This document shows, one piece after another, positions 2,143-26,920 of a DNA stretch of 64,000 nt (within the stretch, counting starts at the first letter, position 1; every line of letters starts with the position of its first letter). Origin of the DNA: Haloplanus sp. XH21. GTDB taxonomy: Archaea; Halobacteriota; Halobacteria; Halobacteriales; Haloferacaceae. Location: contig NZ_JALLPL010000001.1 in the NCBI RefSeq assembly GCF_023276355.1, positions 868,001 to 932,000 on the forward strand. Direction: 5' to 3'. Both the position numbers and the translations under genes were made by a program. The notes under the pieces are model-generated. The model had not been told where the DNA came from. It saw only the letters and a list, made by a program, of their open reading frames with translations, and ran no database searches.

Positions 2143-3135
2143 ATGAGCCAAAGCCACATCGAATCCCAACAGGACGCACTCGACGAGTATCACGACGATT
2201 CGGGCGACCTACCGGTGATGCGCGCCCGCTTCGAACACAACGGCAGTCCGCGCTACTTGCTGTACACGATCAAGCGGTTCGGCTACGATCTGGATCACGA
2301 CTTCCATCTCGACGTGCAGCTCGTCTCCGACGCCCTCGAAGACGGCATCGAGACGGTCGAAGCCCAACTCCAGGAGGGCGCCGCCGACCTCATCGACATC
2401 GACTACATCTCCATCGCCCGCGAGCGCGCCGAGGGCGCCGACATCGTCGCCTTCCACCCCTACGGGCGAACCGTCGGCGGCCTCGTCGCGCCGGAGGACA
2501 CGGACATCGACGGATTGGCGGACCTCTCCGGCAAGCGCATCGGGGTCGTGCGCCGTCTCGACAAGAACTGGATTCTGACGCGGGCGGCCTGCCGCGAGTT
2601 CCACGACTTCGACCCCGACGAGACGGCGACGCCCGTCGAGGCCGGATCGAAGGTCGAACTCACGCGGATGATCCGCGACGGCGAGGTCGACGCCGGCTTC
2701 CAGTTCTGGCAGATCATCCCCGAAATCACCGAGACGGGCCCCTACGAGAACGTCCTGCCCGTCTCGGAACTCGTCCAGCGGCTCTCGGAGACGGAGAACA
2801 AACTTCCCGTCGCCGCCTTCCTCACCAGCGAGACGTATCTGGACGAGCAGCGGGAGACGGTGCGGGCGTTCACGCGCGCCTACCGCGACGCCGTCGACCG
2901 CCTCGTTGAGGACGACGAACTCTGGGAGGAAATCGCCGAGAAACTCATGACTTACGACGACCCCGAAGTCATGCGCGCCGTGCGTGACGGCTGGCGCGAC
3001 ATGGTCGTCCGCGACTGGGACGAGGAGAGCGTCGACGGGATGTATCGGCTGTTCGATCACCTGCAAGCCGTCGCCGGCGCCGAGGCTCTCGGCGTCGACG
3101 AGATTCCGGAGGGTACCTTCAACACCGACCCATGA
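2143..3135 (+). CDS. NMT1/THI5-like protein, duplicate copy 2
   Basis: A 330-residue paralogue of 954-1946 starting at ATG 2143. It shares a 97-base stretch of perfect nucleotide identity with the first copy (2536-2632 against 1347-1443), far above the rest of the alignment. It has no signal peptide. Its stop overlaps the ATG of the following gene (ATGA), so translation is probably coupled. The family fold suggests binding of a small organic ligand; no transporter genes adjoin. The acidic composition is typical of a cytoplasmic halophilic protein. Confidence 0.75.
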   Translation: MSQSHIESQQDALDEYHDDSGDLPVMRARFEHNGSPRYLLYTIKRFGYDLDHDFHLDVQLVSDALEDGIETVEAQLQEGAADLIDIDYISIARERAEGADIVAFHPYGRTVGGLVAPEDTDIDGLADLSGKRIGVVRRLDKNWILTRAACREFHDFDPDETATPVEAGSKVELTRMIRDGEVDAGFQFWQIIPEITETGPYENVLPVSELVQRLSETENKLPVAAFLTSETYLDEQRETVRAFTRAYRDAVDRLVEDDELWEEIAEKLMTYDDPEVMRAVRDGWRDMVVRDWDEESVDGMYRLFDHLQAVAGAEALGVDEIPEGTFNTDP

Positions 3136-4100
3136 GCGACACCGTCACCTTCCAGCTGAACTGGGAGCCCAACGGCTTCCAGGCACCGTACTTCCTCGCG
3201 CGTCGCGAGGGGTTCTACGACGACGAGGGTCTCGACGTGGAGTTCGTCGAGGGCCACGGCTCCCCGTTCGCCGCCGAACAGACGGCGAAAGGGCGAAGCG
3301 ACCTGGGTCTGGCCGGCGGGAGCGCCGTCCTCTCCGTTCGGAGCCAGGGCCTCGATCCGCTCGCCGTCGCGGCGGTCAGTCAGAAGACGCCCGCGACCAT
3401 CTACAGCCTGCGGGACGTGTTCGGCGAACCGTTCACCGACCCCGAACAACTGCGCGGCCGGACGGTCGCCCCCTCGGCGACCAAGACCCGCATCCTGACG
3501 CTGCAGTTGCTCGAAGACCGGGGCATCCGCGACGACGTCGAGGTTCACGACGTCCAGAAACACACGCACCACCGCGTCGAACACCAACTGCTCGATGGCG
3601 ATGTCGACGCCGCCGTCGGCGTCGTCACCAACGGGAAGGAACTCGAACGCGAGTACGATCGGATGGCCGACGAACTCCTCATCGGGAACCACCTCGACGT
3701 CTACGGCATGACCGTCGTCAGCAACCCCGAGTTCGCCGCGTCGAACCCCGACACCGTGCGGTCGTTCCTCCGGGCGACGGCGCGCGGATGGGAACTGGCG
3801 ACGACCGACCCCGACCGCGCCATCGACGCGCTCATCGACCGCAACGCCCAACTCGAACACAACCGCGCGGTCGAACGCATGAAGTTCCTGGCCTCCGCCG
3901 AGGACCTGCAGTTCACGGAGTTCGTCCGCGAGGCCGGCTGGGGCCACCACGACGGCCGGCGCTGGGAGAACCTAGCCGAGATGCTCGCCGAGACGGACCT
4001 CCTCGAATCGTCGGTCGATCCCGACGAGGCGTGGACGAACGAGTACGTCGACGAGTCGGACCCCGTCATCGCGAACTACGCCGAGCGCATCGGGCGGTAG
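3132..4100 (+). CDS. ThiY/THI5-like substrate-binding protein without signal peptide
   Basis: A 322-residue protein opening with LNWEPNGFQAPYFLARREGF and DDEGLDVEFVEG, the signature of NMT1/THI5/ThiY proteins that bind pyrimidine precursors of thiamine. The N-terminus has neither Tat motif nor lipobox, unlike the lipoprotein at 15658-16722. The CCCFC motif of the yeast Thi5 HMP-phosphate synthase is absent, so the sequence does not support that enzymatic activity directly. The start overlaps the stop of the preceding gene. A solute-binding or sensor role in the cytoplasm is inferred. Confidence 0.75.
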   Translation: MSDTVTFQLNWEPNGFQAPYFLARREGFYDDEGLDVEFVEGHGSPFAAEQTAKGRSDLGLAGGSAVLSVRSQGLDPLAVAAVSQKTPATIYSLRDVFGEPFTDPEQLRGRTVAPSATKTRILTLQLLEDRGIRDDVEVHDVQKHTHHRVEHQLLDGDVDAAVGVVTNGKELEREYDRMADELLIGNHLDVYGMTVVSNPEFAASNPDTVRSFLRATARGWELATTDPDRAIDALIDRNAQLEHNRAVERMKFLASAEDLQFTEFVREAGWGHHDGRRWENLAEMLAETDLLESSVDPDEAWTNEYVDESDPVIANYAERIGR

Positions 4101-4700: not shown

Positions 4701-4830
4701 ACGTTCCTATTCGTCCCCCGACGGGTGAACGTTTTCGTCGCTCGGCGGGGGCGCCGAGATGACGACAAGACTGGACAGATACCGACCGTGACCGCCGGAT
4801 AGACCCGGTTACCCACGGTACCGGATGACA

Positions 4831-4842
4831 ACATTAATGGCT
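4831..4842 (+). promoter_or_regulatory. Probable TATA region for fdhF
   Basis: The AT-rich stretch CATTAATG lies about 30 bases upstream of the ATG at 4867. It supports that ATG over the in-frame ATG at 4825, which would lie upstream of or inside the promoter. Confidence 0.4.
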
Positions 4843-4866
4843 GACCATCCTGATTCTTCACACATA

Positions 4867-6993
4867 ATGTCATCCGACTCAAGCAGCGAATCGGACGGGC
4901 CGACCAAGACGATCTGCCCGTACTGTGGTGTGGGCTGTGGCATTCAGATTTCGCAGGACGACGAGGGTGAAGTCACGTTCCGGCCGTGGGGCGACGCGCC
5001 GGTCAACGAGGGGAGCATCTGTATCAAGGGTGGTGCGGCGACCCAGTCGGTCAACCACGAGGACCGACTGACCGACCCGCTCATCCGCGACGACGACGGC
5101 GAACTGCAGGAAGTCTCCTGGGACGAGGCCTACAGTTACATCGTCGACAACATGGAGCGCATCCGCGACGACTACAGTCCGCAGGCGATGGGCTTCTATG
5201 GCTGTTCGAAGGCCATGAACGAGGAGAACTACCTCATCCAGAAGCTCGCCCGTCGCTACGGCACCAACAGCGTCGACACCTGTACCCGAATGTGCCACTC
5301 CTCGACGGTGTACGCGCTCAAGAACAGCCTCGGCGAGGGCGCGATGACCAACAGCATGGAAGATCTGGAGGAGGCGGCGGACGTCTTCTGGATCCAGGGC
5401 GCCAACCCCGGCGAGCAGCACCCGATCGCGAACAGCCAGTACTTCCGGCAGGCCGTCCTCGAGGGTGCGACGGTCATCCAGGTCGACCCCCACGCGAACA
5501 AGACCACGCAGTCCTTCGAGATCGACGAGACCGACCGGCACATGCATCTCCAGCTGGAGCCGGGGACCGACATCCCGCTGCTCAACATCGTCATCAAGAC
5601 GATTCTGCAGAACGACTGGGTCGACGAGGAGTTCATCGCCGAGCGCACCGAGGGCTTCGAACACCTCAAGGAGACGCTCGAAGACTTCGACAAGGAAGAG
5701 GCCGCCGAGGAGTGCGGCGTCCCCCTCGAAGACATCGAACTCGCCGCCGAGAAGTACGCGATGGCGAACAACGCCGCCATCTTCACCGGCATGGGGATGA
5801 GCCAGCACACCTGCGGCGTCGACAACGTCCAGAACGAGATCAACCTCGCGCTCATCACCGGCAACCTGGGCCGTCCGGGCACGGGCGTCAACCCGCTCCG
5901 CGGGCAGAACAACGTCCAGGGCGCCTCCGACGTGGGCGCGATGCCGAACGTGCTGCCGGGCTACCGACCCGTCAGCGACCCCGAGGTCCGCGCGGACGTC
6001 GAGGAGGTCTGGGACTTCGAGATTCCGTCCGAACCCGGCCTGACCAACGTCGAACTCTCCCACGAAATCGGCGACACCGTCCACGGGCTCTACATCATGG
6101 GCGAGAACCCCGTGATGAGCGAACCCGACACCAACCAGGTCGAGAAGCGGCTCGAAGAGTTGGAGTTCATGGTGGTTCAGGACATCTACGAGACGGAGAC
6201 GGCCAAATACGCCGACGTGATCCTGCCCGCCACCTCGTGGGCCGAGCGTGACGGCACGGTCGTCAACACGGACCGCCGGACCCAGCGGATGCGCGGCGTC
6301 GACAAAGTGCATCCGAACACGAAAGACGACCTCGAGATCCTCTGTGACGTCGGCAACCGGCTGTTCGGCGACGGCTCCTTCGACTTCGAGGGTCCCGAGG
6401 ACGTGTTCGAGGAACTCCGCCAGGTTGCGCCCATCTTCCACGGCATGACCTACGACCGCCTCGGCGAGGAGGGCATCCACTGGCCGTGCTACGAACCCGG
6501 CGACGAGGGTGACGACTACCTCTACGGCGACGGCTTCACGACCGAGAGCGGTCTCGGGCAGATCGAGGGCGTCAACCACCAGCCGCCGAAGGAGACGCCC
6601 GACGAGGAGTACCCGCTCATCCTCACAACGGGCCGCATCATCGAACATTACAACACGGGGACGATGAGCCGGCGCTCCGAGACGCTCAACCGTGTCGAAC
6701 CCGAGAACTTCGTCGACGTTCACCCGAACGACGCCGAGGAGTACGGCATCGAGGACGGCGAATACATCACGCTCAAGTCCCGACGCGGTGAGATCGAGGT
6801 CGAAGCCCGCGTCACCGAGGACATCAAGGAAGGCACCGTGTGGACGACGCCGCACTTCGCTGACTCCGCCGGCAACCGCCTCACGAACGACGTGCTCGAC
6901 GAGCGCGCGAAGATTCCGGAGTACAAGGCCGCCGCCGCCGAAATCGAGGTCACGGTCGACACCGACACCGCGGACGCGCCGGCCGACGACTAA
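4867..6993 (+). CDS. fdhF: Formate dehydrogenase alpha subunit (molybdopterin, Cys form)
   Basis: A 708-residue protein, close to the 715 of E. coli FdhF, of the Mo/W-bisPGD oxidoreductase family. A [4Fe-4S] motif is formed by Cys17, Cys20, Cys24 and Cys52 (CPYCGVGC, then ICIKGG). The active-site selenocysteine of FdhF-H is a cysteine here (Cys143 in TRMCHSS), followed by the conserved His. Molybdopterin-binding blocks follow (GANPGEQHP, MSQHTCGVDN, RGQNNVQGASDVG). It should oxidise formate to CO2, or act in reverse. No signal peptide, no beta or NAD-reducing subunit and no FdhD adjoin, so the electron partner is unknown. It lies upstream of C1-releasing genes of this window. Confidence 0.9.
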   Translation: MSSDSSSESDGPTKTICPYCGVGCGIQISQDDEGEVTFRPWGDAPVNEGSICIKGGAATQSVNHEDRLTDPLIRDDDGELQEVSWDEAYSYIVDNMERIRDDYSPQAMGFYGCSKAMNEENYLIQKLARRYGTNSVDTCTRMCHSSTVYALKNSLGEGAMTNSMEDLEEAADVFWIQGANPGEQHPIANSQYFRQAVLEGATVIQVDPHANKTTQSFEIDETDRHMHLQLEPGTDIPLLNIVIKTILQNDWVDEEFIAERTEGFEHLKETLEDFDKEEAAEECGVPLEDIELAAEKYAMANNAAIFTGMGMSQHTCGVDNVQNEINLALITGNLGRPGTGVNPLRGQNNVQGASDVGAMPNVLPGYRPVSDPEVRADVEEVWDFEIPSEPGLTNVELSHEIGDTVHGLYIMGENPVMSEPDTNQVEKRLEELEFMVVQDIYETETAKYADVILPATSWAERDGTVVNTDRRTQRMRGVDKVHPNTKDDLEILCDVGNRLFGDGSFDFEGPEDVFEELRQVAPIFHGMTYDRLGEEGIHWPCYEPGDEGDDYLYGDGFTTESGLGQIEGVNHQPPKETPDEEYPLILTTGRIIEHYNTGTMSRRSETLNRVEPENFVDVHPNDAEEYGIEDGEYITLKSRRGEIEVEARVTEDIKEGTVWTTPHFADSAGNRLTNDVLDERAKIPEYKAAAAEIEVTVDTDTADAPADD

Positions 6994-7829: not shown

Positions 7830-8420
7830 TTACTCGTCGCTGCGACGCAGGGCGCCGTAGGCCGCGGCACCGACAGCCGTCACGGCCGCGCCGACACCGA
7901 AGCCGGGACCGTTGCCGCTGGTCTCTTCGCCGCCGTTGCCGCCGTCGCCGCCGGATTCGGTCGGCGTTGCAGTGGCGGTCGGCTCCGGCGTCGCCGTGGC
8001 GCCACCGGAGACGTTGAACTCGCCGCCCTCGTCCATGTGTTCCTCACAGAAGTACGTCGCCAGGTCGCCGGTGGCCTGGAACTGAACGGTCTTGGTCACG
8101 CCGCTTTCGAACACGTAGTCACCACGCCGGACGACGCTGTCGTCGCTGTTCGCGATGACGAGGTTGTGCCGGGCCGTTCCGGACTGGCTGGATTCGGGGA
8201 CGTAGCTGTTCGTCCACTGGATGGCATACCGGTTGCCAGCCTCGACTTCCAGCGTCGGGTTGGTTTCGCCTTCGATGCTGGAGGGCGCCCGGCCGACGAA
8301 GCCGTCCTCGGTCAGTTCAAGTTCGAATGTCTGGGCCTGCGCCGTCACGGATCCCACGGCGCCAGCGAGTCCAGTCGTCGTTGCTGCGGCACCGATCAGG
8401 AATTTTCTTCGCGTCGCCAT
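7830..8420 (-). CDS. Tat-exported cupredoxin with PGF-CTERM-like anchor
   Basis: A 196-residue protein. A twin-arginine signal (TRRKFLIGAAA) starts it and a cupredoxin domain covers about residues 30-138. Type 1 copper ligands visible are His85 (ARHNLVI), Cys125 and His128 (YFCEEH). The axial Met normally about five residues after the His is not there (GGE instead); Met129 follows the His directly. After a Thr/Pro/Gly-rich linker comes GPGFGV plus a hydrophobic helix and a basic end, a PGF-CTERM sorting signal for archaeosortase. It lies downstream of the PQQ dehydrogenase on the same strand and may accept its electrons at the cell surface. Confidence 0.8.
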   Translation of the reverse strand: MATRRKFLIGAAATTTGLAGAVGSVTAQAQTFELELTEDGFVGRAPSSIEGETNPTLEVEAGNRYAIQWTNSYVPESSQSGTARHNLVIANSDDSVVRRGDYVFESGVTKTVQFQATGDLATYFCEEHMDEGGEFNVSGGATATPEPTATATPTESGGDGGNGGEETSGNGPGFGVGAAVTAVGAAAYGALRRSDE

Positions 8421-8533: not shown

Positions 8534-10261
8534 TTACTCGCTGAGGCCGAAGACGGCGACGGTGGAGCCACGACGGCCGCCGTGGAGCCAACCGGAGCCA
8601 CCGACCTGAACCGCGACGTACTGCTTGCCCTCGCCGGGGTCGTACCAGCTGGAGAGCGACGAGCAGATCGGCGCGCCGAGCTGGAACTCCCAGAGTCGGT
8701 CACCGTTCTCGCCGTCGTAGGCGATGATGTGGCCGGTCTGGGTACCCGTGAAGGTCAGGCCGCTTGCGGTCGTGATGGAGCCGCCCCAGAGATAGTCGCT
8801 GGTGACATCCTGGGAGATCCAGTCACGCCAGACCCGTTCACCGGTGGCGGGGTCGACCGCGATGACGGCACTGAGGTTGCCGTTCCAGTTGTCGGGTTCG
8901 TCGACGTCGGGCCAGTCGTTGAGGCCGCCGCCCCAGTAGGTCTGACCCGCTTCGTACTGCGCCTCTTCCCAGAAGATCTCGTGCGGTGCGTTGTTCTGGT
9001 TGAGGTACACGAGTCCCGTTTCGGGGTTGTACGACGGTGGCTGCCAGTCGTTGCCACCGTGTGCGCCAGGAACGAAGGCGACCCGACGGTCCTCGTCCGT
9101 GTGCGGAATCATCTTCCACATGTTGATGTGCTGGGTCGTCTCCTCGGACCGTTCGAGGAGCTGCCCGTTGTTGGCGTCCATCGTGTAGACCCAGGATGTC
9201 TTGCCGGGGCTGATGACGACGTCTTGCGTCTCGCCGTCGCCCATCTCCATGTCGTTGACACGGATCTTGGTCGCCGAGGAGTCGTAGTCCCACACGTCGT
9301 GGGGGGACTCGCCGTAGTGCCACTGGATGGAACCGTCGTCGACGCTGAGCGTCAGCGTCCCGATGGTGTAGCGGTTCGGACCGGGACGGACGGTGCCGTC
9401 GAAGTCCGGACCGGGGTTGCCGACCGGGGCGTGGAGCATGCCGCTCTCGGGGTCGAGCGTCGGCGTCATCCACACCGTACCGGCGCCGTGTTCGTGGGAG
9501 TCGCCGGCCCATTCCTCGGGCGGCGTCGTGTTCGTGCGCCAGATCTCGCTCCCGTCGCTCGGGTTGAGTGCGGCGACGAAGCCGCTGACGCCGTACTCGC
9601 CACCGGCAGAGCCGGTGATGACCTTGCCTTCGTGGACGATCGGAGCCCACGTGGCGGAGTAGCCGATCTCGTGGTCGCCGGTCGACGTGTACCACACCTC
9701 TTCGCCGGTGTATCGGTTGAGTGCGACGACACCGGAGTCGAGCGTGGTCATGAAGACCTTGTCGTTGTGGACGGCGAAGCCACGGTTGTTCGCGTCACAG
9801 CAGAGAAGGAGCCCCTGCGGGTTCGCGTACGTGTAGCTCCAGAGCGTCTCACCGGTGCGGGCGTTGATCGCTTTCGCGTGGTTCGGCCCGTTGGTCTGGT
9901 ACATGACCGGCGGGTCGCCGGGCACGACGATCGGGACGCCTTCCATGCTGGAGGCGACGCCGCTCTGGACCAGGTACTCGAGTTCGAGATTGTCGACGTT
10001 GTCCGGCGTGATGACATCAGCAGAGGTGTGACGCTGCTGCTGATAGCCGCCACCGTACATCAGCCAGCTGGTGGGGTCCTCTTTCGCAGAGGCCTCCCGC
10101 ATGTCCTGGGTGACGTTTTTCTCCGGAATCTGATCGATATCGAACTGCTGGGTGATGGACTCGTCGGGCAGGTTCGTCAGCGTGTACCCGTCCTCGACCT
10201 CCACCATCTCGATGTTCTGTGCGGCCTCTACTGCTTTGTCGTGTTCGTGAATGCTAGCCAT
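8534..10261 (-). CDS. PQQ-dependent alcohol dehydrogenase with lanthanide-type WDYD motif
   Basis: A 575-residue eight-bladed propeller quinoprotein. Repeated tryptophan-docking motifs (GEEVW, GSEIW, GSIQW, GERVW, GDRLW) run through it. The vicinal cysteine pair that shields PQQ is Cys154-Cys155. Metal ligands match methanol/ethanol dehydrogenases: Glu222 (GGEYGVSGF) and Asn282 (VGNPG). The catalytic Asp is Asp325 in HDVWDYD, and Asp327 sits where lanthanide-dependent XoxF/ExaF enzymes have their extra Asp and calcium enzymes have Ala or Ser. It should oxidise a primary alcohol or aldehyde. It has no signal peptide and no cytochrome c domain. Its start lies 4 bases after the stop of the Tat-signal gene at 10265-11185, which may carry it across the membrane. 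The substrate is unknown, and no PQQ synthesis genes are in the window. Confidence 0.9.
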   Translation of the reverse strand: MASIHEHDKAVEAAQNIEMVEVEDGYTLTNLPDESITQQFDIDQIPEKNVTQDMREASAKEDPTSWLMYGGGYQQQRHTSADVITPDNVDNLELEYLVQSGVASSMEGVPIVVPGDPPVMYQTNGPNHAKAINARTGETLWSYTYANPQGLLLCCDANNRGFAVHNDKVFMTTLDSGVVALNRYTGEEVWYTSTGDHEIGYSATWAPIVHEGKVITGSAGGEYGVSGFVAALNPSDGSEIWRTNTTPPEEWAGDSHEHGAGTVWMTPTLDPESGMLHAPVGNPGPDFDGTVRPGPNRYTIGTLTLSVDDGSIQWHYGESPHDVWDYDSSATKIRVNDMEMGDGETQDVVISPGKTSWVYTMDANNGQLLERSEETTQHINMWKMIPHTDEDRRVAFVPGAHGGNDWQPPSYNPETGLVYLNQNNAPHEIFWEEAQYEAGQTYWGGGLNDWPDVDEPDNWNGNLSAVIAVDPATGERVWRDWISQDVTSDYLWGGSITTASGLTFTGTQTGHIIAYDGENGDRLWEFQLGAPICSSLSSWYDPGEGKQYVAVQVGGSGWLHGGRRGSTVAVFGLSE

Positions 10262-10264
10262 GCG

Positions 10265-11185
10265 TTACGCACCTCCCGTGCGTGGGGCGCGCATTTCGTC
10301 CGTGATGCGCATCACATCGTTCGTCAGATCTTCCTGTCCGACGATCATCATCGCCGCGCCAGCGGACAGCGCAGCGGTGAGCTGCGCGTCGCTGAGCTCC
10401 TGAGCGCCGGCGAGATCTTCGGCGGCGCTCGAGAGCAGGTGCAGACCGGCGTACATCTGCTTGAGGTCGCCGTAGTTGTTGTCGAGGATCGTATCCGTCA
10501 GCAGCACCTCGTTCTGCCAGAGATACGTGTCGAGGTAGTCCGTCCACAGCAGCACACCGGCCGCCGATCGCTGGTGGAGCGGAGCGATGTTTGCGGGGTC
10601 GAACCCTTCGACGCCGGCCGGGATGTTCTTCGTCGGCACCCACATGGCCAGGCGTTCCTTGTTGTTGACGACGTTGACGACCGTCGAAGTCAGTTCCTCT
10701 TCACTGTAGCCGAGTTCGTGCAGCGCGGACGCGAGTGCGCCCGTGTTGATGAACTCGCGCGCCGTCGCCCCGATGTGCTCGGGGGTGAACTCCGGAAGGT
10801 GTTCCTCGACGCTCTCGAAGAAGCCGACTTCGACGAGATGCTCGTGGATAGCCCAACCGGGCTCGGCGAGCTGCTGGTACTCCGTGCTTCCCTCGGCCGG
10901 GACGCCCATCGCCCGCAGCTCCGGAAGCCGGGTGATCTGTTCTTCGAGGGAGGCGAGCTCGCTACCGAGCAGACCTGCGTCCAGTTCGCCGGTCAGGTCC
11001 TCGCTGATAGCTTCGCCCATCGCGGCGAGTTCCCCCGCCGCTTCGCCTTCTACTTCGCCCCTGAGATCGCTCAGGGTGAACTCACTACCTGCTGCCACTG
11101 CGCCGGTGAGCCCGACGACCTTGAGGAACTGTCGACGATCCTCTTGGCCGATTTCGGGCATTCCGTCGTTTACATATTGCGACAT
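10265..11185 (-). CDS. Tat-signal partner of the PQQ dehydrogenase, family unknown
   Basis: A 306-residue, mostly helical protein with a twin-arginine signal at residues 17-37 (DRRQFLKVVGLTG, then AVAAG). The mature part is acidic, with aromatic-rich stretches (PGWAIHEHLVEVGFF and WTDYLDTYLWQNEV) and no recognisable cofactor motif. It is the first gene of the operon and is separated from the PQQ dehydrogenase by 3 bases. By analogy with hydrogenase small subunits, it may form a complex with the signal-less dehydrogenase before Tat export. I do not recognise the family. Confidence 0.75.
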   Translation of the reverse strand: MSQYVNDGMPEIGQEDRRQFLKVVGLTGAVAAGSEFTLSDLRGEVEGEAAGELAAMGEAISEDLTGELDAGLLGSELASLEEQITRLPELRAMGVPAEGSTEYQQLAEPGWAIHEHLVEVGFFESVEEHLPEFTPEHIGATAREFINTGALASALHELGYSEEELTSTVVNVVNNKERLAMWVPTKNIPAGVEGFDPANIAPLHQRSAAGVLLWTDYLDTYLWQNEVLLTDTILDNNYGDLKQMYAGLHLLSSAAEDLAGAQELSDAQLTAALSAGAAMMIVGQEDLTNDVMRITDEMRAPRTGGA

Positions 11186-11351: not shown

Positions 11352-11867
11352 TTATCGGACCGTGATATGGCCTATCATGCCCGAGGCTGCGTGGGGCACG
11401 CAGACGTACGTGTACTCGCCGGTGACTTCGAAGGTATGGCGGTAGGTCGTTCCTGCTTCGTCGAGCGAGACGTGGTTGATTTCGTCGCCCGAGATGTCGT
11501 AGCTCGCGAACGGGTCAGCCCCTTCGGGGAGTTCGACGTCGCTGTGGGCGTCGGGATGCCCCGAGACGTTGTGGCCGCCGGAGTCGAAAACCCACTCGAC
11601 GGTGTCGCCCTGGGAAACAGCGGTGTTCGCAGGGTCGAACTCGAGGCTGCCACCGGGACCGACGGTGATCGTCGCGTCTGCCGGTTCCGAGGGCGTCGAT
11701 GTCGGCGTCGCTGTTTCCGTTGCCGTTGCCGTCGCCGTTTCCGTCGGCGTTGCCGTTGTCTCACCGTTTCCGCCGAAACATCCAGCGATTCCGGCGAGTG
11801 AAACACTGGCGACCGTCGCTGCGAACTTTCGTCGTGACAGAACCTCTTTCGGCTGCTTTGAGACCAT
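11352..11867 (-). CDS. Halocyanin-like blue copper lipoprotein
   Basis: A 171-residue protein. It has a Tat signal (SRRKFAATVA) and a lipobox with Cys30 (AGC) for lipid anchoring. A Thr/Pro/Glu linker follows, then a plastocyanin-like domain from about residue 65. Type 1 copper ligands are His99, Cys156, His159 and Met164 (CVPHAASGM). It is a mobile or membrane-tethered one-electron carrier on the outside of the cytoplasmic membrane. Its neighbour is the PQQ dehydrogenase operon on the same strand, so it is a plausible electron acceptor. Confidence 0.88.
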   Translation of the reverse strand: MVSKQPKEVLSRRKFAATVASVSLAGIAGCFGGNGETTATPTETATATATETATPTSTPSEPADATITVGPGGSLEFDPANTAVSQGDTVEWVFDSGGHNVSGHPDAHSDVELPEGADPFASYDISGDEINHVSLDEAGTTYRHTFEVTGEYTYVCVPHAASGMIGHITVR

Positions 11868-12009: not shown

Positions 12010-13293
12010 GTGCGAATTCGAGAGTTTCCGGTCCTCGGCGACGAGGACGAACGGACGGTCGAGACGTTCGCCGCCGGTCTCGACCGCGAGGCGGCACGCG
12101 TCCTGGCGTATCTGGTCGGTCGCGAGGAGTCCGACCGGTTCGCCGACGAAGCGGCCTCGCGGCTCGCCGTCCGCGTCGGCGTCGACCTCGGCCGCGGCCG
12201 CGTCTCCGACGCGCTGTCGACGCTCACGGAGCAGGGGCTGATCGCGGAGACGACCGTCGAGAGCGAAGCCCCGGGGCGGCCGCCGAAAGGCTGGCGCGCC
12301 GCGGACGGCCGCGACTCGACGGGCACGCACGTTCGTGCCCACCACTCCGCGGCGTTGCTCGACCGCGCGGCGACCGTCGGCTCGGCTCTCGGCGACGACA
12401 TCGCTGTCGACACCACCGGCCCGGCGCCGGACGACCGGGACGCGGGCGCCCTCGACATCGGCCTCAACTGGGAGCCAAACGGGCTCCACGCCCCGCTGTT
12501 TGCCGGCGCCTACGCCGACCACGGCGTCGACGTGACGCTCACCGGCTGTCGGGGATCGCGTGCGGCGCTCTCGGCCGTCGCCGACGGCGATGTCGACATC
12601 GGCCTCACCGGCGCCGCCACACTTCTTCGCGCGCACGAGGCGGGTCACGACCTCGTCCCGCTCGCGCTGTACTACCAGCGCGCGATGGTGGTGCTCTACA
12701 CGACGCGATCGGTCTTCGGCGGGCCGCTCCGGAGCGTCGAGGATATCCGCGGCCGTCGGGTCGCCATGCCTGACGGCTCCGAAACCGGCGCGCTCGGCCG
12801 CCTGTTCCTCTCTCAGGCCGGCGTCGTCGACGACGTGACCGTCGTCAGAGCCGACGGCGAGGAGCGCGAGGCACTGCTCGGCGGCGACGCCGACGTGGCG
12901 ACCGGCGTCTTCACCGACCCGCTCGAACTGGAGGCGGCGGGTCACGACGTGGACTCCGTGCTCGTCGCCGATCACTTCCCCGTCCCCGGTCCCGCGTTCG
13001 TCGTCGACCGCGAGACGCTCCGGGAACGCCCCGACGCAGTCCGTGGGTTCCTGGAGGGAACGATGGCGGGGTGGACCGCTGCGCGACTGGATCCCGCGGC
13101 CGCCGTCGACGCCGTCGTCGACCGCAACGGCGAACCGCCCGCGGCCGAACGCCGCAAACTCGAGCAGGCGATCGACCGCTTTGCGGACAGCGACGCCGTG
13201 GACAAACACGGCTGGGGCTGGCACTCCGTCGAAACGTGGCAGCGACTCGCGATCGCTCTCGAACAGGCGGACGCCCTCGGGATCCCACCATGA
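12010..13293 (+). CDS. Winged-helix regulator fused to a THI5/ThiY ligand-binding domain
   Basis: A 427-residue protein. Residues about 1-100 form a winged-helix DNA-binding domain (DREAARVLAYLVGREES, then RVSDALSTLTEQGLI and a wing rich in Gly/Pro/Lys). Residues about 140-427 form a complete NMT1/THI5 binding domain (LNWEPNGLHAPLFAGAYADH) without any signal peptide. This is a one-component regulator whose sensor is a substrate-binding-protein fold. It is the first gene of an operon with an ABC ATPase and permease (ATGA overlap), so it presumably senses the transported ligand, perhaps a thiamine pyrimidine precursor. The start is GTG. Confidence 0.85.
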   Translation: MRIREFPVLGDEDERTVETFAAGLDREAARVLAYLVGREESDRFADEAASRLAVRVGVDLGRGRVSDALSTLTEQGLIAETTVESEAPGRPPKGWRAADGRDSTGTHVRAHHSAALLDRAATVGSALGDDIAVDTTGPAPDDRDAGALDIGLNWEPNGLHAPLFAGAYADHGVDVTLTGCRGSRAALSAVADGDVDIGLTGAATLLRAHEAGHDLVPLALYYQRAMVVLYTTRSVFGGPLRSVEDIRGRRVAMPDGSETGALGRLFLSQAGVVDDVTVVRADGEEREALLGGDADVATGVFTDPLELEAAGHDVDSVLVADHFPVPGPAFVVDRETLRERPDAVRGFLEGTMAGWTAARLDPAAAVDAVVDRNGEPPAAERRKLEQAIDRFADSDAVDKHGWGWHSVETWQRLAIALEQADALGIPP

Positions 13294-14069
13294 TCTCCGT
13301 CGACAACCTCTCCGTGAGCTACGGCGACCTCCGCGCGCTCGACGCTGTCTCGCTCGATATCGCCGACGGCGAGTTCGTCACCATTGTCGGCCCGTCCGGC
13401 TGTGGCAAGACCACGCTCCTGCGGACCATCGGCGGCCTCGAAACGCCGACGACGGGCCACGTCAGCGTCGACGGCGACCCGCCCGAAGTCGCCCAGTCGG
13501 CCGCCCGCCTCGGCTTCGTCTTCCAGGATCACACCCTCCTCCCCTGGAAGACGGCCCTGGAGAACGTCACGTTCCTCCGCCGGATGGCGGGGAAGGACCC
13601 CGACCCCACCGGCGCCCGTGAACTGCTGGCGACGACCGGCCTCGACGGCTTCGAGGACGCCCGCCCCGCCGAACTCTCCGGGGGGATGAAACAGCGCGTC
13701 GCCATCGCACGGGCCATCCACCTCGGCGCCGACGTGTTGCTCATGGACGAGCCGTTCGGCGAACTCGACGAGATCACCCGCGACGAGATGGGGGTCGAAA
13801 TCCTCCGCCTGTGGCGCGAGAACCGCAAGACGGTCGTCTTCGTCACCCACAGCGTCCCCGAGGCGGTCTTCCTCGGTGACCGCTGCCTCGTCGTTTCGGG
13901 CGACGACCGTCCAGACGCCGGGTCGACGACCGGCGACGGCGCCCCCGGCCGCATCGTCGGGGAGTTCGACATCGACCTCCCCCGCCCCCGCGACGAGTCG
14001 GTGTTCGGCTCCGAGGCGTTCGGCACCCAGGTCGCCCGGGTGCGCCGCGCGCTCCACGGCGACCGATGA
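13290..14069 (+). CDS. ABC transporter ATP-binding protein (NitT/TauT/ThiZ type)
   Basis: A 259-residue ATPase. The ATG at 13290 overlaps the stop of the regulator. All ABC motifs are present: Walker A GPSGCGKTT, Q-loop FQDHTLLPW, signature LSGGMKQR, Walker B VLLMDEPFGELDE, and the switch His in FVTHS. It energises uptake by the permeases at 14066-14821 and probably 14861-15658. The C-terminal 50 residues are acidic and specific to this group. Confidence 0.9.
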   Translation: MISVDNLSVSYGDLRALDAVSLDIADGEFVTIVGPSGCGKTTLLRTIGGLETPTTGHVSVDGDPPEVAQSAARLGFVFQDHTLLPWKTALENVTFLRRMAGKDPDPTGARELLATTGLDGFEDARPAELSGGMKQRVAIARAIHLGADVLLMDEPFGELDEITRDEMGVEILRLWRENRKTVVFVTHSVPEAVFLGDRCLVVSGDDRPDAGSTTGDGAPGRIVGEFDIDLPRPRDESVFGSEAFGTQVARVRRALHGDR

Positions 14070-14821
14070 GCGTCGCGGACCGCGTCCCGCTCCCGGACGT
14101 GGTGTTGCCGGTGTCGGCGCTGGTCGCCGCCGTCGCGGGCTGGTGGGCACTCGTCGTCGGCTTCGCGGTTCCTCCCTACCTGCTCCCCTCGCCGACAGCC
14201 GTGGCCACGCGCCTCGTCGACAACCCCGACCTGTATCTGTCCCACGCGACGGAGACGCTCCGAAAGATCGTCGCGGGCGGCGCGGCCGGCATCGCCGTCG
14301 GGTTCTCGCTCGCGCTCGTCGTCTCGGCGGTGCCCGTTCTCCGGCGGGCGATCTACCCCTATCTCGTCGCCGCCCGTGTCCTGCCGAAAATCGCCATCGC
14401 GCCCATCTTCCTCATCTACTTCGGCGTCGGCTTCGGAACGGCCGTGCTCTTCGTCGCGCTCGTCGTCTTCTTCCCCGTCGTCGTCGGGACGGCGGCGGGC
14501 CTCGACCGCACGCCCGACGCCCACCTCGATCTGTTGCGGTCGGTCGACGCCGATCCGCTCCGGACCTTCCTGGCCGTCCGCCTCCCGCACGCACTGCCGG
14601 ATGTCTTCGCGGGCGTGAAACAGGCGGTCACGCTCGCGGTGGTCGGCGCCGTCGTCGCCGAGTGGATCCTCTCGAACGACGGACTGGGCGCGCTGATCCT
14701 CGTCGCCTCCGAGAACGTCCAGGTGGACGTGATGCTCGCGGCGCTGGTCGTCCTCCTCCCGATGGGACTCTTGCTCTACGGCGGCGTGACGCTCTGCCAG
14801 CGCGCCGTCTCCTGGCAGTGA
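14066..14821 (+). CDS. ABC transporter permease (NitT/TauT/ThiX type)
   Basis: A 251-residue membrane protein with about six transmembrane helices. The EAA loop that docks on the ATPase is visible (LLRSVDADPLRTFLAVRLPH, then ALPDVFAGVK). It overlaps the ATPase gene by 4 bases. Family members carry nitrate, sulfonates, taurine or thiamine precursors; the THI5-type binding proteins on either side favour a thiamine-related or similar heterocyclic ligand. Confidence 0.88.
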   Translation: MSVADRVPLPDVVLPVSALVAAVAGWWALVVGFAVPPYLLPSPTAVATRLVDNPDLYLSHATETLRKIVAGGAAGIAVGFSLALVVSAVPVLRRAIYPYLVAARVLPKIAIAPIFLIYFGVGFGTAVLFVALVVFFPVVVGTAAGLDRTPDAHLDLLRSVDADPLRTFLAVRLPHALPDVFAGVKQAVTLAVVGAVVAEWILSNDGLGALILVASENVQVDVMLAALVVLLPMGLLLYGGVTLCQRAVSWQ

Positions 14822-14860
14822 TTCGGTGACGACGCACGGTGACGTGTTACGGCCGGCGCG

Positions 14861-15658
14861 TCAGCCCCAGTCGAGGCGCCGTTCGATCGTTGCGGGGACG
14901 AGATAGAACCCCAGACCGAGCAGCGTCAGCGCTCCGAGCGCGGCGAAGGTGGTACTGGTCCGCAGATACTCCGCGCTGTCGAACAGCTGATACCCCAGCC
15001 CCGTCTGGAGCGTGAGAAACTCCGCGACGACGGTGCCGACGACCGCAAGCGCCGCGGCGAGTTTCACGCCGGCGAAGACGCTCGGCGCGGCCGCGGGCAC
15101 GCGAACCCGGAGGAACACGCGACGGGGCGGCGCGTCGACGGAGCGGGCGAGGTCGGTGTACTCCTGGGGCACCGTCCGGAGTCCGTCGACCGACGCGATG
15201 GCGACCGGGAACACCGTCATGGTGGTGACGAGCAGTGCGCGCGCGAGGATCCCGTCGCCGATCCAGAGGAAGACGAGCGGCGCGATGGCGATCAGCGGCG
15301 CGATACGGAGCGCGATCAGATACGGATGCACCACCGCGGCGGCCACCCGCGAGCCGACCATCGCGAACGCCAGCGCGAGGCCGACGGCGACGCCGCCGGC
15401 GAGGCCGAGACCGGCCGTCACCGCCGTCGTGGCCGCGGCCGCGAGCAGCGTCTCGCGGGCGGCCATCCCGGCCACCACCACGTCGACCGGCGAGGGCAGG
15501 ATCACGCTCGGGACCCCCGTCGCGGCGACGAACCGCTGCCATCCGCCGACGGCGACCGCGAACACGACCGCCGGGGGCCAGACGGCGCTGAACGCCGACC
15601 GGAGCGTGTCGCCGCCCACCGGCCCGATTCCCCGGCGTCGGCGGTCGTTCGTCGCCAT
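14861..15658 (-). CDS. Second ABC transporter permease of the same family
   Basis: A 265-residue protein with about six transmembrane helices and an EAA loop (LARSVDAPPRRVFLRVRVPA). The ATG at 15658 overlaps the stop of the lipoprotein gene; a longer open frame upstream is only a shadow of that gene. It converges on the other permease with a 39-base gap. No second ATPase is present, so it probably shares the ATPase at 13290, possibly as a heterodimer with the 14066 permease. Confidence 0.85.
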   Translation of the reverse strand: MATNDRRRRGIGPVGGDTLRSAFSAVWPPAVVFAVAVGGWQRFVAATGVPSVILPSPVDVVVAGMAARETLLAAAATTAVTAGLGLAGGVAVGLALAFAMVGSRVAAAVVHPYLIALRIAPLIAIAPLVFLWIGDGILARALLVTTMTVFPVAIASVDGLRTVPQEYTDLARSVDAPPRRVFLRVRVPAAAPSVFAGVKLAAALAVVGTVVAEFLTLQTGLGYQLFDSAEYLRTSTTFAALGALTLLGLGFYLVPATIERRLDWG

Positions 15659-16722
15659 CAGACCATGTCGGCGTAGGAACCCACGGACTCGGCGTCGGTG
15701 TCGAGATACTCGTTCGTCCAGACGGCGTCGGGATCGATGTCGCCGTCGAGGGCGCCCGCGTCGGCGAGCGCGTCGTGGATCACGCGCCAGGGTTCGGCCT
15801 GGCTCCACCCCCAGCCGTGCTCCCTGACCGCGTCGCTGAGGGCGAACTCCGCGGCCATCGTCTCCCACTTCCGGCGCTGTTGGGCGTGCGACTCCTCGAG
15901 GACGCCGTTGGCCTCGACGAGGATGTCCGTCGCCTCGCCCGGTCGCTGGTGGGCCCACGCCGCGCCGCGGGCGGTTCCCCGGAGGAACGCCCGGACGGCG
16001 TCCGGGTTCGATCCGGCCCACTCCCGGTTCGTGGCGATCACGTGCCCGTAGGACGGGATGGTGTCGCCGACGGCGAGGCTGTCGACGGTGTAGCCCTGGG
16101 CTCCGGCGCTGATGGCGTCGCCGAAGACCCCGCCCGCGGCGTCGACGTTCCCCGAGAGGAGTTGCTGGACCGTGTCGTACCCCGTATCGACCATCTCCAC
16201 GTCCTCACGGACGCCTGCCTCCTCCAGCAGGAGTTCCGTGAGCATCCGGACCATGCCCGGCCCGGTCCCCACCGTCTTGCCGGCGAGCTGATCGGCGTTC
16301 GATAGCTCGCCGCCGAACGTCTCGCGGGTCGAAAACACCACGGCCGGACTCTTCTGCATCACGACGCCGACCGACTGCGGCGAGAGGTCGCGGCTGTTGA
16401 TGTTCAGCACCTGGTCGCTGCTGCTAACCGCGAACTTGGCGTTGCCGAGGCCCGCCTGCTTCGCCGAGAACGTCGAACCCTCTCCCGACTTGATAGACGA
16501 GAGCGTCAATCCCTCCTCCTCGTAGAACCCGTTTTCCTTCGCGACGAAGTAGGGAACGTGGAGACCGCTCGGCTTCCAGTTGAGCAGTAGGGACGCCTCG
16601 CCCGGAATCGCCGTCCTCGTCGTGGTCCCTGCGGCGTTCGTTCCGCCGCATCCCGCGAGCCCAGTCGCCCCCGCCGCGCCCGCCGCGACGAGAAAGCGCC
16701 GTCTCGTCGGCGTCTGTCTCAT
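15658..16722 (-). CDS. ThiY-like ABC substrate-binding lipoprotein
   Basis: A 354-residue protein with a Tat signal (TRRRFLVAAGAAG) and lipobox (LAGC, Cys25), so it is an extracytoplasmic lipid-anchored binding protein. The mature part begins LLLNWKPSGLHVPYFVAKEN and follows the NMT1/THI5/ThiY pattern through GWGWSQAEPW. The same GWGW motif occurs in the HTH-fused regulator, so the two probably bind the same ligand. It is the first gene of the minus-strand half of the transporter. Confidence 0.9.
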   Translation of the reverse strand: MRQTPTRRRFLVAAGAAGATGLAGCGGTNAAGTTTRTAIPGEASLLLNWKPSGLHVPYFVAKENGFYEEEGLTLSSIKSGEGSTFSAKQAGLGNAKFAVSSSDQVLNINSRDLSPQSVGVVMQKSPAVVFSTRETFGGELSNADQLAGKTVGTGPGMVRMLTELLLEEAGVREDVEMVDTGYDTVQQLLSGNVDAAGGVFGDAISAGAQGYTVDSLAVGDTIPSYGHVIATNREWAGSNPDAVRAFLRGTARGAAWAHQRPGEATDILVEANGVLEESHAQQRRKWETMAAEFALSDAVREHGWGWSQAEPWRVIHDALADAGALDGDIDPDAVWTNEYLDTDAESVGSYADMV

Positions 16723-17422: not shown

Positions 17423-17491
17423 CCGACGGCGACGCGCCCGAACCGTTGCGTGTATAATAATTCAACGTACGGTGATACCCGCGTACCAACC

Positions 17492-17500
17492 TACATAATA
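17492..17500 (+). promoter_or_regulatory. TATA box of the first cation exchanger
   Basis: TACATAATA is centred 26 bases before the ATG at 17522. It supports that start rather than an upstream in-frame ATG at 17450. Confidence 0.55.
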
Positions 17501-17521
17501 GTCCACACCTTTCGACGGTCC

Positions 17522-18733
17522 ATGGTACGAATGCGGGTGGTCGTCGGTATCGCGCTGTTACTGTCGCTTCTCGTCGCGTCGCCGGCCGCTTCGGCGGTCG
17601 CCGACGACCTCGGTGCGGCCGGACCGGTCGACACCGTCGTTGCCCAGGAGGAAGAAGAGGAAGGCGGTATCGAGGGGGCTATCTCCGGCTTCGTCGAGGC
17701 CCAGGGGACCATCGGGGCGGTCATCGTCCTCCTCGGCGGCGTCTTGCTCCTGACCGCGTGTACGGAGAAACTTATCAGCTACCTCGCGCGCGCATCGATC
17801 AACATGAAGATGTCGCTGTTCGCGCTCGCGATCATCTTCACCGGGTTCGAGTTCGACGACACGATCCTCGCGCTGGTGCTCTCGGGCGGCGGCCTGGAGA
17901 GCGCCGCCCTCGGGACGGCGCTCGGCACCGGTCTCGCCATCATCGGCGTGACGCTCGCCATCGCCGCCGTCATCAAGCCCTTCCCGGTCGATCTTCCGAA
18001 CGACTACATCGCCATCTTCGGCGTCGCGCCAGTTCTCCTCGTTCCCTTCGTCCTGCTCGGGACGCTCACGTTCGTCCACGGCCTCGTTCTGACAGCCTTC
18101 TTCGTGTTCGCCTTCGGCTACTTCCTCGTCCGGGAGCGCCAGCGGGAGATCCCCGTCTTCCGCGATACGGAACTCGGCGAGGAACTCAGTCCCGACGGCG
18201 GCATGGCTCGGCCCCAGTCGCTCGAAGAGATCCCCGAGGATCGGGCGCTCGGTGACTTCGCCGACTACGGAATCGTGTGGATCAGTCTCTCCATCGTCGC
18301 GCTCGCAGGCATCGTCCTCGCCGCCATGCTGCTCGAAGGCGGCTCCGAGGTGGTCATCGAAGGGTTCGGCATCGAGGAGACCGTCTTCGGTGCGACCTTC
18401 CTCACGCTCATCCTCACCTTCGAGGACATCATGCTCACCATCGAACCGGTCCGGCGGGGCTTCCCCGAGATCGGCGTCGGCAACGTCATCGGGAGCGTGC
18501 TGTTCTCGGTGACCGGTAACATCGGCGTCATCATGTTCCTGAGCGAAGTGAACATCTCTTCGTCGGTGCTCTCCTTCCACCTCCCGGCCATGATCGTCGT
18601 GACCGCGCTCGCCGCCTACTTCTTCTACGAGGGTGAGATGAAGCGCTGGCACGGCTACCTGCTCGGCGGCCTCTACGTCGCCTACTGGATCATCGCCCTG
18701 ATCGTGTTCAGCGGGGTGCCCATCGGCGAGTAG
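17522..18733 (+). CDS. Sodium/calcium exchanger family protein 1
   Basis: A 403-residue integral membrane protein. It has an N-terminal hydrophobic segment, an acidic loop (EEEEEGG), then ten or so helices arranged as two inverted repeats. The cation-site regions are GFEFDDTILALV in the first repeat and FEDIMLTIEPVRRG, then GNVIGSVLFS, in the second, as in the CaCA superfamily. It probably exchanges Na+ for Ca2+ or another cation. It is convergent with a paralogue at 18757-19830. Confidence 0.82.
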   Translation: MVRMRVVVGIALLLSLLVASPAASAVADDLGAAGPVDTVVAQEEEEEGGIEGAISGFVEAQGTIGAVIVLLGGVLLLTACTEKLISYLARASINMKMSLFALAIIFTGFEFDDTILALVLSGGGLESAALGTALGTGLAIIGVTLAIAAVIKPFPVDLPNDYIAIFGVAPVLLVPFVLLGTLTFVHGLVLTAFFVFAFGYFLVRERQREIPVFRDTELGEELSPDGGMARPQSLEEIPEDRALGDFADYGIVWISLSIVALAGIVLAAMLLEGGSEVVIEGFGIEETVFGATFLTLILTFEDIMLTIEPVRRGFPEIGVGNVIGSVLFSVTGNIGVIMFLSEVNISSSVLSFHLPAMIVVTALAAYFFYEGEMKRWHGYLLGGLYVAYWIIALIVFSGVPIGE

Positions 18734-18756: not shown

Positions 18757-19830
18757 TCAGAGCGGGAGCGCCACTGCATCGCTGTAGTTCGCGACCCAGT
18801 ACGCGGCGTACATCCCGAGCAACAGCACGCCGGTCCCGCGGCCCACTTTCCCGCGGAGGAAGGCCACGCTCACGACGCCGAGGGTCGCGAAGAAGAATGG
18901 CCAGTGGACCGTCAACACCGTGCCCGTCGTATCCAGCGGGTGGACGATGGCGATCAACCCGGCGTTCGCGCTGACGAAAAAGAGGATGCTGCCGACGACG
19001 TTGCCGACGCCGAGGTGAGGTCGGTTCTGCCGCACTGGTTCGACGGTGAGGAACAGTTCCTCCAGCGACGCGATGAAGCTCATCACCGTCGCGCCGAACG
19101 CGAGACCGGTTACGCCGAGCAGCGCGAGCAGGTCCTCCGCGCCCGAGACGGCGATTTCCGAGCCGACGGTCATCCCGATGGCGGCCACGATGGCGATGGC
19201 GAGAAACGCGGGCCCCTCGTACTGCTCGGGGACGCGCTTCTCGACGAACTCGTCGACGTCGAGATCTAGGTCGACGTCGAACCAGCCGTCTTCGTCGTCC
19301 TCGCGTTCCTCTCCCGCCTCGTGTTCGCGCTCCATGATCTCGACTTCCTCCGCCGAGAGATACCGCGTCTCGCTCCACCGTTCCAGCCCGTAGATGATCG
19401 CGAGATAGGGGATGAACGTCGCCGTGAGGACGATCCCGTCGAACCGCGAGAGCGTGCCGTCGAGCGCGAGACCGAAGAGGAGAAACGGGGTGAGCAGCGT
19501 CATCGCCAGGTAGTTCCGCGGCACCTTCGTCTCGAAGGGGACGAGCACGCCGGCGATACCGACGGCGGCCCCGAGGATGAACATCGCCTCGCCGAAGACG
19601 GTGCCCAGCGCGAGATCGGGTAACTCCTCGAACGCCGCTGCGACCCCCAGAATGACGTTTTCGAGGTCGGTCCCCGCGAGCACGACGGTGAGGAAAAAGC
19701 CGGAGACGCCGAGCGCCAGCGCCCCTTCGGCCACCGCTTCGATGAACGTCTCGACGCTGACGATGACGATGGCGACGCCGACCAGAAACAACACGACCGA
19801 GAGCAGTTCGCCCGACAGTCCCAGTACCAT
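18757..19830 (-). CDS. Sodium/calcium exchanger family protein 2
   Basis: A 357-residue CaCA-type exchanger. The repeats are visible as LAGTDLENVILG, then GTVFGEAMFILG, and ASLEELFLTVEPVRQ, then GNVVGSILFFVSAN. A cytoplasmic acidic loop (residues about 175-205, DEDGWFDVDLDLDVDEF) lies between the halves. The ATG at 19830 begins at the first hydrophobic helix; an upstream in-frame start is less likely. It ends 23 bases from the end of its paralogue. Confidence 0.82.
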   Translation of the reverse strand: MVLGLSGELLSVVLFLVGVAIVIVSVETFIEAVAEGALALGVSGFFLTVVLAGTDLENVILGVAAAFEELPDLALGTVFGEAMFILGAAVGIAGVLVPFETKVPRNYLAMTLLTPFLLFGLALDGTLSRFDGIVLTATFIPYLAIIYGLERWSETRYLSAEEVEIMEREHEAGEEREDDEDGWFDVDLDLDVDEFVEKRVPEQYEGPAFLAIAIVAAIGMTVGSEIAVSGAEDLLALLGVTGLAFGATVMSFIASLEELFLTVEPVRQNRPHLGVGNVVGSILFFVSANAGLIAIVHPLDTTGTVLTVHWPFFFATLGVVSVAFLRGKVGRGTGVLLLGMYAAYWVANYSDAVALPL

Positions 19831-19876
19831 GCGATTTGAGAGGGCATACGCCCACCGCCACATAAAGCCCCCGACC

Positions 19877-21499: not shown

Positions 21500-21850
21500 T
21501 CACACGACGTTGACGTGATCGTCCCGCGGCTCCCAGAGCACGCCGGTCAGGCGGTGATCGTCGACGGCCTCGAGCGTCTCCCCGACGGTCCATCCCTGCT
21601 CGCTCATGGCGGCACTGACGGCGCCGAGGGGCACGCCCTCGCCGTCCGCGAGGCCGTCGATGACGGCGATGAGTCCCTGCTCCGCCGGGGCCGCTTGCAT
21701 CTCGTCCGGACACCGCTCCCACACGATGTCGTGACCCGTGACCGCGGTGTGGCGGCGGTAGAACGCCACGATGTCGTTCGGCTGCTCGGTCGCCGCCCGC
21801 TCTCCGCAGGCGGGGCACTCGGCGACGAAGGCGTCCATGCAGGTGGTCAC
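21500..21850 (-). CDS. Small CxxC zinc-finger-like protein
   Basis: A 116-residue protein from a GTG at 21850 that overlaps the stop of the Rieske gene; an ATG at 21838 would give 112 residues and is equally plausible. CPACGER near the start and a later single Cys (WERCPDE) suggest a metal knuckle. The C-terminal half (GLIAVIDGLADGEGVPLGAV, then VGETLEAVDDHRLTGVLWEP) looks like a small helical domain. Translational coupling to the Rieske oxygenase suggests an accessory role. The family is not recognised. Confidence 0.65.
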   Translation of the reverse strand: MTTCMDAFVAECPACGERAATEQPNDIVAFYRRHTAVTGHDIVWERCPDEMQAAPAEQGLIAVIDGLADGEGVPLGAVSAAMSEQGWTVGETLEAVDDHRLTGVLWEPRDDHVNVV

Positions 21851-23013: not shown

Positions 23014-23123
23014 GTATTCCCACATCCACAGTCGGGAATCTAAGTTCCTCACCTGTCTCACGTGGGATCCTTAAGTATCGGCGCGGCGCCCCCGAGGCTG
23101 CGGCCGGTCCTCGCCCCCGTCGG

Positions 23124-23975: not shown

Positions 23976-24009
23976 GGGGTCGACGGGTCAGGCCTCGTCG
24001 GCTCTAGAC

Positions 24010-24024
24010 GACCACCGTGTGGTC
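24010..24024. promoter_or_regulatory. Palindrome upstream of the MTHFR-like gene
   Basis: GACCACCGTGTGGTC has 6-bp inverted arms and lies about 35 bases before the start codon at 23975 on the minus strand. It is a candidate operator in the promoter region. Confidence 0.3.
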
Positions 24025-24136
24025 ATACTGTCGGCTGTAACTGTTTCGAGAGAGTCGCCATCTCGGGGTGGCGAATATCCGTGTCGGCGTACAGCCGGCA
24101 GTATCGGCGTTTCGCGTCCCGCTCGGGCCACGCGGG

Positions 24137-25522: not shown

Positions 25523-25611
25523 CGTTCGTGATATTCAACCCCTCCAGATAAGGATACACCGCAGGTGGTTGTGGTGTATAAGTGACCCCTCGTTGACGAC
25601 GGTGCGTATGC

Positions 25612-25621
25612 CGCCTATTTG
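25612..25621 (+). promoter_or_regulatory. Possible TATA box for the sarcosine-oxidase-like gene
   Basis: CCTATTTGCC lies 65-75 bases before the ATG at 25685, in a divergent promoter region shared with the DmdA-like gene. GTGTATAAGTG at about 25574-25584 is an alternative. Confidence 0.3.
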
Positions 25622-25665
25622 CCCCGTTGCGCCGGGCGAACGGCCGACACAACTGTCAAGAGAGT

Positions 25666-25680
25666 CCCCGTTGAACGGGG
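25666..25680. promoter_or_regulatory. Perfect inverted repeat just before a start codon
   Basis: CCCCGTTGAACGGGG has 7-bp arms around one central base and ends 4 bases before the ATG at 25685. It could be an operator or an mRNA hairpin hiding the translation start. Confidence 0.4.
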
Positions 25681-25684
25681 GGAT

Positions 25685-26827: not shown

Positions 26828-26920
26828 CCGCCGTGGCGTCGACGGCGACGCCGAAGTTAAAGGCCGCAGGTGAACAACCCGGAATCTTTTGCTGTATTCG
26901 AGTAGATACCCGTGCGTTCC

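Follow-up and report, generated by a model that had tools for sequence, protein, structure and literature searches.

Background

Several described quinoproteins each have part of what is found in the enzyme reported here. The lanthanide enzymes PedH/ExaF (6zcv/6zcw) and XoxF methanol dehydrogenase (4mae, 6dam) have its fold and its Glu-Asn-Asp-Asp metal ligand set, PedH/ExaF together with the Cys-Cys pair and XoxF together with the WDYD motif. The extra Asp of this ligand set is regarded as a lanthanide signature (PMC11845868, PMC11996626). The E. coli membrane glucose dehydrogenase Gcd, known to work with Ca or Mg, has the D-x-D arrangement and a Lys at the position of an Arg, as the haloarchaeal enzyme does, but differs from it by a membrane domain and by the absence of Cys-Cys and of the Glu and Asn ligands (23% identity). 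Quinoproteins have also been described in heterotrophic marine Thaumarchaeota: some of these have DYD, they lack Cys-Cys, most carry signal peptides or transmembrane segments, and they are reported along with a PQQ synthase (PMC7300363).

Here we analyse a dehydrogenase encoded on a stretch of 64,000 nucleotides from Haloplanus sp. XH21 (the window, at its full length). The source genome measures 2.94 Mb, and among named relatives Haloplanus ruber is the closest (91%). Compared with PedH/ExaF, the protein is about 30% identical, falls in a separate clade, has Lys354 instead of Arg and no signal peptide, and is encoded next to a helical partner gene and to cupredoxin rather than cytochrome genes. 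Compared with XoxF, it likewise lies outside the clade, has Lys for Arg, lacks a signal peptide and has no XoxG- or XoxJ-like neighbours that we could see. Unlike the quinoproteins of Thaumarchaeota, it has Cys-Cys and the helical partner, and it lacks a signal as well as pqqC and pqqE in its genome. An earlier note on this DNA had proposed a lanthanide-dependent quinoprotein outside Bacteria; the protein is indeed archaeal and has the complete ligand set, but archaeal occurrence is in itself no novelty, since marine Thaumarchaeota had been described before as having DYD quinoproteins (PMC7300363). In the open-licence literature we found no report of a haloarchaeal lanthanide-type dehydrogenase, of the helical partner or of archaeal PQQ uptake.

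Results and discussion

Identity of the dehydrogenase and residues of its active site

The dehydrogenase gene starts with ATG (see Table 1 for all coordinates). Among the NCBIfam profiles, TIGR03075 for PQQ methanol/ethanol dehydrogenases matches the product over its full length with 385.7 bits (E 3e-115), which is below the curated score of 480 bits and marks the protein as full-length but divergent. Together with the match to Pfam PF01011 (2e-52) and the PDB sequence search (PedH 6zcv as best entry with 1e-73, XoxF 6dam with 4e-67) this excludes a chance match. An AlphaFold model, built without ligand, has a pLDDT of 88, and the top five entries of a structure search with it are all lanthanide enzymes (PedH, XoxF); PedH (TM 0.81-0.84) is the best PDB match both by sequence and by fold. 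The eight-bladed propeller is present together with the Cys-Cys, Trp, Glu, Asn and Asp of the broad methanol/ethanol-type PQQ alcohol dehydrogenases. Other families fit less well: the second-best NCBIfam model, the acido-empty-quinoprotein TIGR04528, scores 280 bits (far under its cut-off of 650), and membrane glucose dehydrogenase TIGR03074 scores 126 bits against the 832 required, while the hydrophobic N-terminus of that family is also absent.

Translation confirms the reading frame and the numbering of Cys154-Cys155, Glu222, Asn282, Asp325 and Asp327 as given in the earlier note, and in alignments with PedH and XoxF these residues coincide with the known positions of the disulfide and the metal site. 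Its assignment of Asp327 to the metal site is upheld as well: the residue aligns with the second metal-site Asp of the PedH and XoxF chains and is the predicted lanthanide-signature residue of the DYD motif, located two residues past the catalytic Asp and accompanied by the Glu and the Asn. All of the site residues named are invariant in 30 close homologues. In a wider set of 52 haloarchaeal homologues (down to 31% identity) this still holds for Asn282, Asp325, Asp327, Trp264 and Lys354, whereas Cys-Cys is retained in 35 and position 222 is Glu in 46 and Asp in the other six. Within the clade of the window dehydrogenase, conservation extends to the PQQ-stacking Trp264, to Cys-Cys, Glu107 and Arg160, and to every metal ligand.

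Table 1. Features of the dehydrogenase locus in the window, with the evidence for each assignment
Feature	Position	Strand	Evidence
Three cytosolic NMT1/THI5-like proteins, no signal peptides	1029-1946, 2143-3135, 3132-4100	+	PF09084
Formate dehydrogenase alpha subunit, recurrent neighbour	4825..6993	+	TIGR01591 above cut-off
Exported cupredoxin-like protein, PGF-CTERM anchor	7830..8420	-	TIGR04126; conserved neighbour; relatives match PF00127
Quinoprotein alcohol dehydrogenase, catalytic subunit, 575 aa, no signal peptide	8534..10261	-	Family models, PDB alignment, AlphaFold model
Lys354, replaces PQQ-contacting Arg of XoxF/MxaF/PedH; equals Lys493 in E. coli Gcd	9200..9202	-	Alignments
Asp325-Tyr326-Asp327 (DYD), predicted metal ligands/catalytic Asp	9281..9289	-	PedH/XoxF alignment; both Asp invariant 52/52
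Asn282, predicted metal ligand	9416..9418	-	PDB chain alignment, homologue conservation
Glu222, predicted metal ligand	9596..9598	-	PDB chain alignment, homologue conservation
Cys154-Cys155, predicted vicinal disulfide above PQQ	9797..9802	-	PDB alignment, homologue conservation
Partner protein, 306 aa, all-helical, Tat-like N-terminus DRRQFLKVVGLTGAVAAGS	10265..11185	-	Co-occurrence, fold model
Halocyanin-type blue copper lipoprotein, full His-Cys-His-Met site	11352..11867	-	PF00127 3e-16, TIGR03102, alignment
HTH domain fused to NMT1 ligand-binding domain, divergent regulator	12010..13293	+	PF09084
ABC transporter ATPase	13290..14069	+	Sequence; conserved block
ABC transporter permease	14066..14821	+	Conserved block
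Second ABC transporter permease, start approximate	14861..15565	-	Conserved block
NMT1-type substrate-binding lipoprotein of ABC transporter	15658..16722	-	PF09084 3e-33
Two CaCA-type cation exchangers, recurrent neighbours	17450-18733, 18757-19863	+, -	PF01699

Distribution and phylogeny

The dehydrogenase is widespread in haloarchaea and forms a distinct clade, neither of which the earlier note had recognized. A homologue is present in 54 of the 293 sampled genomes of the order and in 17 of its 87 genera (the collection was scanned with the dehydrogenase as query, the partner alignment being too divergent). In a tree of 57 sequences all haloarchaeal proteins group in a single clade (100/100), apart from both XoxF and PedH/ExaA. 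The closest bacterial branch after midpoint rooting contains a protein of a Paraburkholderia plasmid and others (L085, L141, L146), which have Cys-Cys, D-x-D and the Lys in common with the haloarchaeal enzymes; they differ by their own hydrophobic N-terminal signal and the absence of a partner gene, at 32-37% identity.

We considered whether the protein could be named XoxF or ExaF, and reject this given the separate clade, Lys354 and the absent signal peptide. The PQQ-contacting Arg of XoxF (Arg326) is absent, its place being taken by Lys354 in all 52 homologues, and an adjacent cytochrome c (XoxG) with XoxJ was not found, as the flanking reading frames encode the helical partner and the cupredoxins. 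The tree also shows no grouping with PedH/ExaA that would fit PedH/ExaF.

A two-gene unit with a helical partner

The dehydrogenase gene is one half of a two-gene unit, a pairing that had previously been missed. The partner gene lies directly upstream on the same strand, at a distance of three bases. Its product has no match in Pfam or NCBIfam; the AlphaFold model is all-helical with high confidence (pLDDT 91) and finds no match among PDB structures (Foldseek, best E 0.2). The partner occurs in 54 of the 54 dehydrogenase-bearing genomes and elsewhere only as one fragment with stops (Fisher 1e-58, uncorrected for relatedness of the genomes). Almost all haloarchaeal loci have it side by side with the dehydrogenase, down to an identity of 33% for the latter, while it was found next to none of the 31 bacterial homologues. 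At one further locus (L113) the apparent absence of the partner was rejected as an artefact of the gene caller; one copy in an incomplete metagenome-assembled genome (MAG; L104) is truly without it. The fragment mentioned above (G252:C1:1281309-1281632) has two stop codons, lies in a genome without the dehydrogenase and represents an apparent recent loss of the system.

PQQ supply and NMT1-type genes

As the earlier note had stated, there are no PQQ synthesis genes within the 64-kb window. Its suggestion that the cofactor might be made elsewhere in the genome found no support, as a genome search did not find the known pqq genes: pqqC was not found, and the pqqB and pqqE models remain far under their cut-offs, as they do in all 14 control genomes. 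None of the 54 dehydrogenase-bearing genomes has pqqC (TIGR02111) or pqqE (TIGR02109), whereas two bacterial control genomes score far above the cut-off. The use of PQQ without its synthesis is common in bacteria, and the import described so far relies on PqqU, which sits in the outer membrane of Gram-negative bacteria (PMC12124388).

Genes of the NMT1 type are found on both sides of the dehydrogenase (Table 1), and a fourth NMT1/THI5-like protein in the window ends at 957. Non-adjacent cases included and relatedness ignored, the dehydrogenase is present in 38 of the 39 genomes with a strong match to the HTH-NMT1 regulator and in 34 of the 36 with a signal-less NMT1/THI5-like protein of the type encoded at 2143. 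Conversely, all 36 genomes of the window-type clade carry the regulator and/or a cytosolic NMT1/THI5-like protein. We infer that the NMT1-type ABC transporter (13290-16722), the regulator and the cytosolic proteins may serve to take up, sense or handle PQQ. Two genomes have a cytosolic NMT1-like protein and no dehydrogenase match (G051 and G081, the latter a 71%-complete MAG that also carries the regulator).

Metal, cofactor and location

Judged from its metal-site residues, lanthanide use by the haloarchaeal dehydrogenase is somewhat probable: the full Glu-Asn-Asp-Asp set favours it, while Lys354 adds doubt. Metals reported for E. coli Gcd are Ca, Mg, Zn and Sr (PMC11996626), and its D466-M-D468 and K493 align with D325/D327/K354, so D-x-D alone is no proof of lanthanide dependence. 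The same two-subunit quinoprotein might thus work with Ca or Mg as its physiological metal, in the manner of Gcd or promiscuously, with a D-x-D unrelated to lanthanide. Both metals are plentiful in brines and two Na/Ca-type exchangers recur as neighbours, whereas no lanthanide-handling gene was identified here, which we count against a lanthanide. Nonetheless, we consider Ca or Mg rather unlikely: in Gcd the columns of the Glu and Asn ligands are occupied by N355 and V422, the haloarchaeal enzyme has all four ligands as in XoxF and PedH, the extra Asp is invariant across 52 divergent haloarchaeal proteins, and ocean microbes prefer lanthanide types although Ca is abundant (PMC11996626). Given genomes without a known PQQ route, it might also be argued that PQQ is missing from the protein, which would then be an 'empty quinoprotein', or that its place is taken by a different quinone or cofactor. 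The missing pqqC and pqqE, with positive controls, would fit this, as would the second rank of TIGR04528, and the co-occurring cytosolic THI5-like proteins could make or carry such a cofactor. However, conservation of the complete PQQ and metal site within the clade, together with the bacterial precedents for PQQ use without synthesis, makes this improbable.

The location of the enzyme is the other point on which readings differ. A hydrophobic N-terminal stretch is found in none of the 52 haloarchaeal dehydrogenases, against 28 of 31 bacterial relatives, whereas the partners of the window clade have a conserved RRxFLK followed by a hydrophobic stretch (Tat assignments are based on motif and hydropathy only). 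The simplest reading of these sequences is that the folded pair would be exported via the Tat signal of the partner, with blue-copper acceptors replacing cytochrome c; the two flanking cupredoxins are candidate electron acceptors, although in the 7830-8420 protein, where His/Cys/His are aligned, the axial ligand is uncertain. Export is not general, however, since the partners of several other clades lack the Tat-like motif and have as neighbours cupredoxin-domain proteins or, in some cases, a 2Fe-2S ferredoxin and a CDC48-type AAA ATPase; some members may therefore be cytosolic. One could go further and take the enzyme as cytosolic throughout, in which case the partner would start with an ordinary structural element; its N-terminus is modelled with fair confidence. 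The signal-less catalytic subunit (52/52), the Tat-less partner clades and the ferredoxin and ATPase neighbours of some of these agree with that view. We nevertheless regard it as unlikely, because the motif and hydrophobic stretch are conserved in the window clade, exported cupredoxins lie on both sides, and the ferredoxin/AAA neighbours are seen at no locus with a Tat-type partner.

The CDC48-type ATPase with a nearby 2Fe-2S ferredoxin was observed at L050, L052, L053, L054, L061 and L086. Reduced PQQ is too high in potential for easy reduction of ferredoxin, and on these redox grounds a direct transfer of electrons to ferredoxin in the Tat-less clades is doubtful.

Proposed mechanism

As a whole, the best explanation is a two-subunit PQQ/lanthanide dehydrogenase that is Tat-exported, passes electrons to cupredoxins and depends on imported PQQ, to which we give about an even chance. 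The product of 8534-10261 would be the catalytic subunit of this haloarchaeal quinoprotein alcohol dehydrogenase. Its beta-propeller is predicted to bind PQQ together with a single metal; the ligands would be Glu222, Asn282, Asp325 and Asp327, and the metal most likely a light lanthanide. Asp325 would act as the base while the metal polarises the C5 carbonyl of PQQ, and the substrate, a small alcohol or else an aldehyde like formaldehyde, would be oxidised by hydride transfer. The catalytic subunit probably folds in the cytosol and then associates with the helical protein of 306 aa; in the window clade both would be exported together through the Tat signal of the latter. At the outer face of the membrane, electrons would pass to the flanking cupredoxins and not to a c-type cytochrome. 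PQQ would not be made by the cell but brought in from outside, perhaps through the linked NMT1-type ABC transporter.

A broader version is more tentative and, as it stands, doubtful: a distinct lanthanide-dependent haloarchaeal system in which a signal-less propeller joins a helical subunit of new fold, PQQ is scavenged via NMT1-type uptake and sensing, and the enzyme is cytosolic in the Tat-less clades with ferredoxin and CDC48. If true, rare-earth enzymology would reach a large group of archaea that can be cultured and would include a subunit not known from bacteria, and the locus would be a first candidate for archaeal PQQ acquisition. Cultured Haloplanus, Natrinema and Haladaptatus allow tests of both.

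Other neighbours and minor observations

Besides the formate dehydrogenase, recurrent neighbours include an aldehyde ferredoxin oxidoreductase and a zinc enzyme that is nearest to glutathione-independent formaldehyde dehydrogenase (below cut-off). Given these neighbours, a short alcohol or formaldehyde is a plausible substrate, though we hold this with low confidence. The pair of CaCA-type exchangers is possibly linked to the handling of Ca or lanthanide.

A cluster for glycine betaine breakdown is located at 21847-29416 of the window, consisting of a Rieske oxygenase nearest to GbcA, MTHFR-like and GCV_T proteins and a FAD enzyme of the DMGDH/sarcosine-oxidase type; its C1 units would be set free in the region that also encodes the formate dehydrogenase. 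In some genomes (L046, L047) a COG0523 (CobW/ZigA-like) metallochaperone GTPase is found near the quinoprotein pair. Two loci (L057:10715-12901 and L060:10111-12429) encode a secreted cupredoxin fused to a GSDH-type domain (soluble PQQ sugar dehydrogenase-like). These fusions adjoin a Cys-less quinoprotein pair and likely represent a second quinoprotein wired to blue copper. Finally, the stretch 34001-38000 of the window has a GC content of about 0.53, against about 0.66 elsewhere, and was possibly acquired recently.
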